A stretch of 64,000 bases of DNA from Acidobacteriota bacterium (GTDB taxonomy: Bacteria; Acidobacteriota; Vicinamibacteria; Vicinamibacterales; UBA2999), in NCBI GenBank assembly GCA_016184455.1, contig JACPCS010000110.1:1-64000 (forward strand). Reading direction: 5' to 3'. Below are positions 6,748-11,169 of this stretch, in pieces. How positions within the stretch are numbered: position 1 is the first letter of the stretch; the number at the start of each line of letters is the position of its first letter. The notes beneath the pieces were generated by a model. It was not told the origin of the DNA. It made no database searches and saw only the letters and a program-made list of their open reading frames with translations. The position numbers were made by a program, and so were the translations under genes.

Positions 6748-6870
6748 ATGATCGTCGAGGAGACCGATCTCGATGCGCTCTTCAAACGGCTGCATCTGGC
6801 GAATGTGCGTCGCGTGTGGCGCCAGCTCGTCGAGCGTGCCGAGCGCGACCGTGGCGCTGTTCCAGGAGCT
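6748..6870 (+). pseudogene. IS21-type istB N-terminal remnant
   Basis: MIVEETDLDALFKRLHLANVRRVWRQLVERAERD resembles the N-terminus of IS21 helper ATPases, then truncated. Confidence 0.5.
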
Positions 6871-7165
6871 AGGACCGATGCTCGCGCGCGTGGAACACGC
6901 GGAGAATTACCACGCGCGTACCGTCGTACCTGTACTGGAACACGTAGGCGGCGCCAAGCACTTGAAGAACGAGCTGCCGGTACTCTTGGCGTCCGGCGAT
7001 CGGGTGACCGAGCTTCGGATGGTGCGCGAGCAACTCCGTTCTCGCGATGACGGCATCGGCGACGACCGGCGCCAGATGTGGAGAGTGTCCCTCGAGGAAT
7101 GCGGCGAAGCGATTGAGATCGGCGAGGGCGTCCTCAGACCAATCAACGGCTATCGGGCCGGCCAC
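6869..7165 (-). CDS. RelE/ParE-family toxin
   Basis: VDWSEDALADLNRFAAFLEGHSPHLAPVVADAVIARTELLAHHPKLGHPIAGRQEYRQLVLQVLGAAYVFQYRYDGTRVVILRVFHAREHR; GTG start at 7165 assumed (ORF runs to 7201). Confidence 0.85.
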   Translation of the reverse strand: MAGPIAVDWSEDALADLNRFAAFLEGHSPHLAPVVADAVIARTELLAHHPKLGHPIAGRQEYRQLVLQVLGAAYVFQYRYDGTRVVILRVFHAREHRS

Positions 7166-7422
7166 GGCCGGTACTCCGGTGTGCCCCAGGTGCGGAGCCA
7201 CCGCACCACGCGCTCCTGCGGCACCGTCCGGTGACCCGCCGCGATGTTCTGCCAGCGGCGATCGAGCTCAGCGATCTCCTCCGGCGCGATGGCGGTCGGT
7301 TCGGCCTCGCCCGTCGCAAGCTCCGCAACTAAGTCCGGAACGCTGATCCCGAGCTCGGCGGCACGCGCGCGCAGCATGTCGGCCGTGTGTTCATCGACTT
7401 CGATGTGGACTTTCGTGCTCAC
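7150..7422 (-). CDS. Antitoxin partner of the ParE-like toxin
   Basis: MSTKVHIEVDEHTADMLRARAAELGISVPDLVAELATGE...; overlaps the toxin ORF. Confidence 0.8.
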   Translation of the reverse strand: MSTKVHIEVDEHTADMLRARAAELGISVPDLVAELATGEAEPTAIAPEEIAELDRRWQNIAAGHRTVPQERVVRWLRTWGTPEYRPWPAR

Positions 7423-7815: not shown

Positions 7816-8466
7816 ATGGTCAGCCGTCGAGCAACGCCACAGAAATCAACACCGAATCGCCCTGAATTTGTTCATCAATTTCTGATCGTCCTCGGCGGGA
7901 CCGATCCGCTCGTCTGGCGTCGCATTCAGGTTCCTCTGACATATTCCTTTTGGGATCTTCACGTCGCGATCCAGGATGCGATGGGTTGGCTCGACTATCA
8001 TCTGCACGAATTTCGACTGCTGGACGGCAAGAACAAGATCCGGGCGATTGGCATTCCGACTGGCCAGGAGTCGCCGGACGAACGCGCGCCCATTCCGCTG
8101 GCGCGTGCGCGTCTCGGACCACTTCACCACCAGCTGTATCACACACTGCCGGCGTTGTATGTGTATGACTTCGGGGATGACTGGGAGCACGCGCTCATCT
8201 ACGAGGGCGAACAGCCCGTTGAGTCGTCGGGCGCGTATCCACGATGCGTTGCCGGAGCGCGCCGGTGCCCGCCCGAGGACTGTGGCGGCGTGCACGGCTA
8301 TGTGGATTTCCTTGCCGCGATCGCCGATCCAGCACACTCCGAGCACGAGGCATCGCTCACTTGGGTCGGCGGCTCGTACGATCCGGACGGCTTCGATCCG
8401 GCGAAGGTCGTGTTCGACGATCCACTCAAACGCTGGAAAACGGCCTTCGAGAGGCAACCTTCGTGA
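7816..8466 (+). CDS. Plasmid pRiA4b ORF-3 family protein
   Basis: FLIVLGGTDPLVWRRIQVPLTYSFWDLHVAIQDAMGWLDYHLHEFRL...YVYDFGDDWEHALIYEG...CVAGARRCPPEDCGGVHGYVDFLAAI. Confidence 0.9.
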   Translation: MVSRRATPQKSTPNRPEFVHQFLIVLGGTDPLVWRRIQVPLTYSFWDLHVAIQDAMGWLDYHLHEFRLLDGKNKIRAIGIPTGQESPDERAPIPLARARLGPLHHQLYHTLPALYVYDFGDDWEHALIYEGEQPVESSGAYPRCVAGARRCPPEDCGGVHGYVDFLAAIADPAHSEHEASLTWVGGSYDPDGFDPAKVVFDDPLKRWKTAFERQPS

Positions 8467-8752: not shown

Positions 8753-9373
8753 TCACGCGGCGTCACCGCGAATCGATTTGGTGCGGCGATTCTGCCGACG
8801 CGGCTTCGTCCCGAGCAGCTCTCGTCCGAGCAGCTCGGCCTCATCGAACGTCAGTTGGCCCGTTCGCCGGCCGTCGTTAATCGCCTGGCGTATGAGAGCC
8901 GGTCCAAGATGGCTGGCGTGCGCATCCCGGATCGCGCGTGCAGCCGTCGCGACCGGCACGCCTGCGACCGTTTGCACGTCGCTGGGGTTGAGGTCAGCGT
9001 AGTGAAGCGCCAAGCGCTTGGGCACGGCACGACGAATCCGGAATTCTGTCGGCAACGTCAGATGCACCTTCGTAGAACTCGCGTCGGACAGGCCATAAAT
9101 CGCGAGAGCGGATTCGTGCGAGATCACCCCGTGCGCATCGGGCCGGCGCACCTGGGGCCACAGCGCGGCTTCCATGTACTGCCCAAGCGGCGAGATCGGG
9201 TATCGGGTAAGACGATAGACGCCGCGCGTCACTCGTTCGATGTCGCCGCGGCGGTGGAGCTGCACCAGCCGCACCTGGTGCAGGCCGGCTTCTCGCGCTT
9301 GGGCCGCGGTGAAGTAGCCTGCCTGGCCTTCAGCAAGTTCATAGAGCGTCGTGGCCCATTGGCGACGTCTCAT
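8753..9373 (-). CDS. AbiEi-family antitoxin (type IV TA), orphan
   Basis: MRRRQWATTLYELAEGQAGYFTAAQAREAGLHQVRLVQLHRRGDIERVTRGVYRLTRYP...HGVISHESALAIYGLSD...VPVATAARAIRDA. Confidence 0.85.
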   Translation of the reverse strand: MRRRQWATTLYELAEGQAGYFTAAQAREAGLHQVRLVQLHRRGDIERVTRGVYRLTRYPISPLGQYMEAALWPQVRRPDAHGVISHESALAIYGLSDASSTKVHLTLPTEFRIRRAVPKRLALHYADLNPSDVQTVAGVPVATAARAIRDAHASHLGPALIRQAINDGRRTGQLTFDEAELLGRELLGTKPRRQNRRTKSIRGDAA

Positions 9374-9385
9374 CTCCTTCTCGTT

Positions 9386-9424
9386 GTTGTCAATAATATA
9401 ATGTCCTTGCATATTATTGACAAC
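9386..9424. promoter_or_regulatory. Perfect 14-bp inverted repeat upstream of abiEi, putative operator
   Basis: GTTGTCAATAATAT (9386-9399), 11-bp spacer, ATATTATTGACAAC (9411-9424). Confidence 0.75.
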
Positions 9425-9434
9425 GCCGAGGCAT

Positions 9435-9553
9435 ATCACGTACAGGTGATTCATCGTCGCTAATATCACTTAATAGTGATATGCTGCGGCATGGTCAAGC
9501 CCAGCCAATCACTTCACCGTGATAAACGCACACTTCAATCACCTATCCGTGAT
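9435..9553. promoter_or_regulatory. Array of four ATCAC-N6-GTGAT operators of hipBA
   Basis: 9435-9450, 9465-9480, 9508-9523, 9538-9553; all with 6-bp spacer; site 2 extends to a perfect ATATCACT-TAAT-AGTGATAT. Confidence 0.8.
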
Positions 9554-9937
9554 ACGCCGTTGACGATATCCGATGTGCTGCGCGAAGCGCGTCTGCGGAA
9601 GCAGCTCAGCCAACAAAAATTGGCCGGGAAGCTGGGCCTGCGACAGCGACAAATCTCCGATCTCGAGCGCGGAGCCATCGACGCCCGACTCTCGACCATT
9701 CACAACGTGGCGAGAGCGCTCGACCTCGAGCTGATGCTCGTCCCGCGCCATCTCATTTCCGCTGTCGAAGCCCTTCAGCGCGCCGGAAGTGACGCCGGCA
9801 AGCGGCCGCTGTATGCCCTTGAGGACGAAACAGATGCTGCTCGCGACGAGCCGTCACACGTCGAAGTTGGCGACACTCGCGAATTCGGCGGTTCGACCGA
9901 ACACCCTCCTCATTCACGTAAGGGGTCGCAACGATGA
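9491..9937 (+). CDS. hipB: HipB-like XRE antitoxin
   Basis: LTISDVLREARLRKQLSQQKLAGKLGLRQRQISDLERGAIDARLSTIHNVARALDLELMLVPR; directly upstream of hipA; start uncertain (9476, 9491 or TTG 9560). Confidence 0.88.
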   Translation: MVKPSQSLHRDKRTLQSPIRDTPLTISDVLREARLRKQLSQQKLAGKLGLRQRQISDLERGAIDARLSTIHNVARALDLELMLVPRHLISAVEALQRAGSDAGKRPLYALEDETDAARDEPSHVEVGDTREFGGSTEHPPHSRKGSQR

Positions 9938-11169
9938 CTTCGGCTGCGGCGCGCGACCGCAACCCAGTCCAGACGCTCGAAGTCCGCCTGGGCGAGACAC
10001 GAGTTGGCGCGCTCACGCACCTCGGTAACGAAGCCTTGATTTTTACGTTCGACCCAACGTACATCGAGGCCAGCAGCGATCGTCCAACGCTCAGTCTCAG
10101 TTTCAAAGCCGCCGCCGGCGATCTTGCCGAGCAGACGCGCCCGACGCGCGTTCGATTGCCGCCCTTCTTTTCGAATCTGCTGCCGGAAGGGCACCTCCGC
10201 GAGTACCTGGCAGTACGAGGCGGCATCCACCCGGACCGTGAGTTCTTTCTCATTTGGCTGCTCGGCGCCGACCTGCCCGGCGCGATAGAAATCCGCTCAC
10301 CAGATGGCGCCACGCCTCCGGCGGGAGATGAAACCCTGCCCGCTGACCAAAGGCAAGACCAAGCGTTCCGGTTTTCACTAGCTGGCGTTCAACTCAAATT
10401 CTCGGCACTCATGGAGACGTCGAAAGGATTGACGTTGCCGGTCGGTGGCGTCGGCGGCGATTGGATCGTGAAGCTGCCTTCGCCACGGTTCGAGGCCGTA
10501 CCGGAAAACGAATACGCGATGATGACGCTCGCCAAAGCGGTTGGTATCGATGTCCCGGAGGTGCGCCTCGTCGCCACGAAAGACATTGGGCGGCTGCCGC
10601 AGGATCTGCCCGAGGCGTTCGGCCAGAGCCTCGCCGTGCGTCGCTTTGATCGACCACGTGCGGACGAGCGCGTCCACATTGAGGATTTCGCGCAGGTGTT
10701 TGGCGTCTATCCGGAGAACAAGTACCGGAGGGCGAGTTACGGCAGCATCGCTCGCGTTCTCTGGCTCGAAGCGGGAGAGGACGCCATCACCGAATACACT
10801 CGACGCCTCGTGTTCAACGTTCTGATCGGCAATGCCGACGCGCATCTGAAAAACTGGTCGCTCATCTATCCGGATCGGCGTACGCCACAGCTGGCGCCGG
10901 CGTACGATCTCGTCGGCACCGTTCCGTACATTCCTGCGGATCGCCTGGCGTTGTCACTCGGCGACACGAAAGAGTTCGCCGACGTCGATCTCGATCGGTT
11001 CCGCCGATTTGCTGAAAAGGCGGGACTGCCCGTCCGGCTCGTGGTGCAGACAGCACGACAGACGGCCGAACGGGTGCGCGATCTTTGGCCCGCTCACGAG
11101 CCGCTACGGGCGCTTCCCGACTGGATTCGCGAAGCGGTTGCAGCCCACCTGACATCGGTGCCGCTGTAG
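9934..11169 (+). CDS. hipA: HipA-family Ser/Thr kinase toxin
   Basis: SLAGVQLKFSAL...GGVGGDWIVKLPS...NEYAMMTLAKAVGIDVPEVRL...RFDR...NVLIGNADAHLKNWSLIYPD..PQLAPAYDLV; ATGA overlap with hipB. Confidence 0.95.
   Translation: MTSAAARDRNPVQTLEVRLGETRVGALTHLGNEALIFTFDPTYIEASSDRPTLSLSFKAAAGDLAEQTRPTRVRLPPFFSNLLPEGHLREYLAVRGGIHPDREFFLIWLLGADLPGAIEIRSPDGATPPAGDETLPADQRQDQAFRFSLAGVQLKFSALMETSKGLTLPVGGVGGDWIVKLPSPRFEAVPENEYAMMTLAKAVGIDVPEVRLVATKDIGRLPQDLPEAFGQSLAVRRFDRPRADERVHIEDFAQVFGVYPENKYRRASYGSIARVLWLEAGEDAITEYTRRLVFNVLIGNADAHLKNWSLIYPDRRTPQLAPAYDLVGTVPYIPADRLALSLGDTKEFADVDLDRFRRFAEKAGLPVRLVVQTARQTAERVRDLWPAHEPLRALPDWIREAVAAHLTSVPL

Follow-up and report, generated by a model that had tools for sequence, protein, structure and literature searches.

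In a 64,000-nucleotide window of an Acidobacteriota genome (order Vicinamibacterales, assembly GCA_016184455.1, contig JACPCS010000110.1, positions 1 to 64,000) the start of a hipBA toxin-antitoxin operon carries four ATCAC-N6-GTGAT palindromes. The array has a regular geometry, is conserved in relatives, occurs independently of the divergent neighbour abiEi and lies partly within the hipB open reading frame (ORF). The four palindromes are very probably the hipBA operators, at which HipB or the HipBA complex would bind cooperatively and repress its own operon. HipB orthologues from the same order, 56–68% identical, were taken for comparison from genomes G362 (locus L010), G416 (locus L121, the same sequence as L040) and G116 (locus L011), together with more distant HipBs, 49–52% identical, from G245 (L012) and G431 (L122). 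The operator sites and the genes of the operon are as follows.

9435–9450, no strand assigned: operator site 1, ATCACGTACAGGTGAT (ATCAC-GTACAG-GTGAT), exact dyad, same position kept in L010 and L121.
9465–9480, no strand assigned: operator site 2, ATCACTTAATAGTGAT (ATCAC-TTAATA-GTGAT), exact dyad, overlapping the predicted hipBA -10 element.
9508–9523, no strand assigned: operator site 3, ATCACTTCACCGTGAT (ATCAC-TTCACC-GTGAT), exact dyad within hipB codons 6–11, arms kept and spacer variable in L010, L121 and L011.
9538–9553, no strand assigned: operator site 4, ATCACCTATCCGTGAT (ATCAC-CTATCC-GTGAT), exact dyad within hipB codons 16–21, arms kept and spacer variable in relatives.
9491..9937, forward strand: hipB, helix-turn-helix (HTH) antitoxin of 148 amino acids (aa) with an HTH_3 match, whose N-terminal extension of about 24 aa, specific to the clade, holds sites 3 and 4.
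9934..11169, forward strand: hipA, HipA-family kinase toxin of 411 aa (HipA_C 180 bits, Couple_hipA 81 bits), overlapping hipB by 4 nt.

The first-pass annotation had described four palindromes with 6-bp spacers spaced by 30, 43 and 30 bp, and all four were found where it had placed them, with zero mismatches and with these start-to-start distances. It had also put the left sites in the divergent gap between abiEi and hipB, which is true of sites 1 and 2 and only of those; the hipB reading frame opens at ATG 9491 and takes in sites 3 and 4, a placement that the annotation had overlooked. Shuffling of the window with a Markov-1 model gave a mean of 0.0375 exact sites per 64 kb and a maximum of 1 (400 shuffles), and a cluster of four N6 dyads sharing one arm sequence, no longer than 150 bp, was found in 0/200 shuffles. 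Two of the palindromes are in coding sequence, but an origin of the four through chance, or as a side effect of protein-coding constraint, is extremely improbable: a stretch of 64 kb should hold 0.04 exact sites, conservation is about as strong at the non-coding sites 1 and 2, and the amino acids encoded by the spacers change freely.

One check had been named beforehand, whether the palindromes are conserved in front of orthologous hipB genes, and the array passed it. Four sites were kept in G362 and G416, the array was degenerate in G116, and sites were also found at the two more distant hipB genes. The orthologous loci retain the positions of the sites (30/44/30 bp), most clearly in two of them: G362 has four exact sites spaced by 30/44/30 bp, G416 has two exact and two imperfect sites at the same positions, and G116 has degenerate sites at three of the positions. 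Site 2 is at the same position in L010, imperfect in L121 and reduced to a half-site in L011. GTGATA-type sites are present in both G245 and G431, and those of L012 are arranged in 30-bp pairs. Comparison of sites 3 and 4 between the window and L010, L121 and L011 gave identities of 20/20, 19/20 and 17/20 for the arms, 3/12, 6/12 and 5/12 for the spacers, and 14/32, 10/32 and 13/32 for the other bases around them. Conserved arms beside variable spacers are the mark of DNA-binding sites superimposed on a reading frame.

A search of 193 genomes of the class for two sites 30 bp apart, allowing up to 2 mismatches, matched 7 genomes, 4 of them at hipB loci, and the control with the reversed pattern matched none of the listed genomes. 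Exact ATCAC-N6-GTGAT occurs eight times in the whole 4.7-Mb genome, where about 3 occurrences are expected by chance; the four outside the array stand singly on other contigs, in long open frames. A wider chromosomal regulon was considered and rejected, as these other four sites look like chance. Another host regulator, for example a global XRE or CRP/FNR-type protein, is a very improbable binder of the array. The shortness of the half-site and the similar dyads of an unrelated phage regulator region speak for such a protein, but the array travels with hipB across genera, and the few exact sites elsewhere in the genome are near the chance number. A search of viral contigs with HipB found no relatives, and a search of these contigs with the palindrome pattern gave two matches, without hipBA in the stretch read, one of which is an HTH-like regulator region with similar dyads. 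Viral contig L120 contains two exact ATCAC-N6-GTGAT sites 30 bp apart at 121–166; a small HTH-like ORF and a recombinase-like gene lie nearby, and no HipA was seen there by reading.

The divergent gap raises the question of AbiEi, the product of the neighbouring gene. The features on this side are given below.

8753..9373, reverse strand: abiEi-like gene, divergent neighbour, 206 aa, AbiEi_4 match of 46.7 bits.
9387..9423, reverse strand: near-perfect inverted repeat TTGTCAATAATAT-N11-ATATTATTGACAA in the abiEi promoter, separate from the hipBA array.

That the array belongs to AbiEi, or jointly controls abiEi and hipBA from the gap, is improbable. The two divergent starts enclose sites 1 and 2, and the distance from site 1 to the abiEi start is no more than approximately 60 bp, so that HipB bound at site 1 could affect abiEi. 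Against this, no orthologous array has abiEi beside it, and in G416 the two systems are on separate contigs. The abiEi orthologues (64–88% identical) contain a different conserved inverted repeat, of the rough form TTG(T/G)CAATAATA-N13-TATTATTG(A/C)CA, just upstream of the start and have no ATCAC-N6-GTGAT; about a dozen abiEi orthologues of the order have kept this repeat upstream, without hipBA alongside. AbiEi was accordingly rejected as the binder of the array, which persists without abiEi, while abiEi orthologues lack the array site. The repeat at 9387–9423 looks like a separate abiEi operator. Since it is distinct from the array, and since orthologous arrays lack abiEi, the divergent gap is, as far as comparative sequence goes, the joint of two separately regulated units. 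HipB is the likely binder of the array, because the arms are kept while the spacers vary and because the orthologous arrays have no abiEi alongside. The abiEi-like gene itself is seemingly solitary, with no AbiEii-type partner recognised alongside, and the next gene is assigned by Pfam to PRiA4_ORF3 (7816–8466). A second toxin-antitoxin-like pair is located in the window at 6869–7422 on the reverse strand, where a ParE_toxin match of 44.7 bits (6869–7201) is preceded by a 90-aa ORF without a Pfam match.

The coding half of the array depends on the position of the hipB start. L010, L121 and L011 each have a counterpart of ATG 9491 at an identical offset. In L121 and L011 this ATG is the sole in-frame start, which places sites 3 and 4 within hipB; L010 has one other, a GTG inside site 3. 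The two sites encode most of the N-terminal extension of about 24 residues, which is confined to the clade of the window, is poorly ordered in the AlphaFold model of HipB and is apparently disordered. In E. coli and in most other arrays examined all sites precede the hipB start. A true start farther downstream, at TTG 9560, would leave no site coding, as in E. coli, and would concern only the placement of the sites, being compatible with HipB binding. The in-frame TTG at codon 24 of the window hipB would allow such a start, and in L012, L122 and most other loci hipB begins only after the entire array. It is nevertheless unlikely, as L121 and L011 are without an alternative in-frame start and L010 offers only the GTG within site 3.

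A simple scan for sigma-70 promoters gave none that ends close to the hipB start. Comparison of the orthologues revealed the following element.

9477..9485, forward strand: predicted extended -10 element (TGaTATGCT), continuous with the right arm of site 2.

Site 2 passes at its right arm into TGaTATGCT in the window, TGaTACAAT in L010 and TGaTATAAT in L011, with the ATG 5 bp past the element in the window and 5–6 bp across these three loci; L121 lacks the TG. In L012 and L122 the TGaTANNNT fusion sits at site 3 and the ATG is farther downstream. This arrangement suggests that hipBA transcription may start at or beside the ATG, giving a leaderless mRNA, and that promoter and start codon have probably come to lie one operator farther upstream in the clade of the window.

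The identity of the antitoxin was examined from the order of the genes and from its structure. In the window an HTH antitoxin gene is followed directly, within one operon, by the gene of a HipA-family kinase, which is the arrangement of a hipBA module. The AlphaFold model of HipB has a helical core at residues 26–101, with pLDDT above 90 in the HTH. Foldseek placed this core closest to the E. coli HipB-operator complexes 4z5h and 4yg1, followed by Legionella HipB, the E. coli HipA-HipB-O2-O3 complex and Shewanella HipB. By its family scores the antitoxin is HipB-like and not the E. coli equivalog.

The spacing of operator dyads was surveyed in 62 HipB loci with hipA nearby, by collecting pairs of similar near-perfect dyads at all distances of 20–89 bp with no half-site assumed. 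Repeated dyads gave peaks at 30–31 bp (5 and 10 loci), 43–44 bp (5 and 5) and 73–75 bp (4, 3 and 7), over a shuffle background of approximately 0.03 per distance; hipA interiors and the regions behind hipA had no repeated dyads at the preferred distances. Ten plasmid loci, for which the search gave only HipBs less than 60% identical, served as a held-out set. Repeated dyads were found in 4/10 of these, and 3 of those 4 have one at 30, 31 or 43 bp. Most loci with preferred distances carry GATATG-N6-CATATC-like dyads and a recognition helix like PQSHISKIE, where the window type is RQRQISDLE. The hipBA locus of Pelagibacterium luteolum (L061) has at least five ATATG-N6-CATAT dyads upstream of hipB and an extra pair 31 bp apart farther upstream. 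Another half-site and spacing are seen in L019, where three AAGGCG-N6-CGCCTA-like dyads 27 bp apart lie upstream of an HTH-hipA pair.

Several results weigh against operator function of the array for HipB or against its wider extension. Some sites are degenerate or missing in L011 and L122, and no -35 element was found for the hipBA promoter. The window HipB scores under the NCBIfam HipB cut-offs (PRK09726 or TIGR03070; 25.6 vs 79 bits and 40.9 vs 71.65 bits), and the best Foldseek E-values for its model are just approximately 1e-3. The preferred distances occur in just 11/36 HipB clusters, with clusters merged at 70% identity and a strict detector.

The proposed mechanism of autorepression by HipB can be described as follows. 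HipB dimers, alone or with HipA, would occupy each TATCAC-N6-GTGATA-type dyad and repress the operon, HipA probably acting as co-repressor. Sites 1 and 2 are at and upstream of the predicted promoter, and HipB or HipBA filling them would exclude RNA polymerase; since the right arm of site 2 is part of the putative extended -10, binding there would block the polymerase directly. Sites 3 and 4, just downstream and within the first 21 hipB codons, would complete a paired lattice of 30/43/30 bp on which neighbouring HipB or HipBA complexes can touch one another. They may stabilise the complex by contacts over the 43-bp gap, or block elongation, and a falling level of HipB would open the promoter.

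A broader proposal is put forward tentatively, as somewhat less than an even chance is given to it. HipBA operons may be governed by a conserved dyad lattice of approximately 30/44/30 bp, which persists while operator sequence and HipB recognition helix change together. In the clade of the window, promoter and start codon would have shifted one operator upstream, so that half of the lattice has become translated and would serve inside the gene as a roadblock or a cooperative anchor; the mRNA would be leaderless, and an operator arm would supply its -10. The comparison suggests that what is conserved in HipBA autoregulation is the spacing and not the operator sequence, as expected if neighbouring HipA-HipB complexes must touch. 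A clade with operators inside the antitoxin gene would provide a natural experiment on whether an intact lattice is still required once the promoter has moved, and the pairing of half-site type with recognition-helix type gives a handle on HipB specificity.

The array is a variant of the known hipBA operator system, and it extends the layout of E. coli hipBA control to a distant lineage. E. coli HipB is reported to bind four operators cooperatively, with HipA as co-repressor (PMC3920265, PMC3376134), and in E. coli K-12 (NC_000913.3) four perfect TATCC-N8-GGATA sites are located at -134, -106, -67 and -39 from hipB. At the start of hipB both arrays therefore have two pairs of dyads, spaced by 28/39/28 bp for O1–O4 in E. 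coli and by the slightly longer 30/43/30 bp in the window, and the two HipB proteins appear to share a common fold. When aligned on the dyad axis, TATCC-N8-GGATA and TATCAC-N6-GTGATA have the core ATC-N10-GAT in common, in the same register; the outermost T/A pair of the latter is complete in site 2 only. The first-pass annotation had regarded the array as the equivalent of the E. coli HipB operators with a different half-site, and the equivalence is borne out by layout and register, but the half-site is not wholly different, given the common core. On these sequences it is a variant of the E. coli half-site and not an unrelated one: the window has no exact TATCC-N8-GGATA, A replaces C next to the core, and there is an extra fixed C/G pair (ATCAC vs ATCC). 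All E. coli operators are upstream of the hipB start, unlike sites 3 and 4, which fall in hipB codons 6–21. Intervals like those of E. coli recur in the hipBA1 and hipBA2 promoters of Caulobacter crescentus, and the passage on their inverted repeats mentions no intragenic sites, unlike the window (PMC7029023). The Legionella hipBST operon resembles the window in having several upstream operators (18 nt) bound by a HipB homologue, but its sites are three, evenly spaced with gaps of 53 bp, the sequence between their arms is conserved, and none was found within hipB (PMC10653801).
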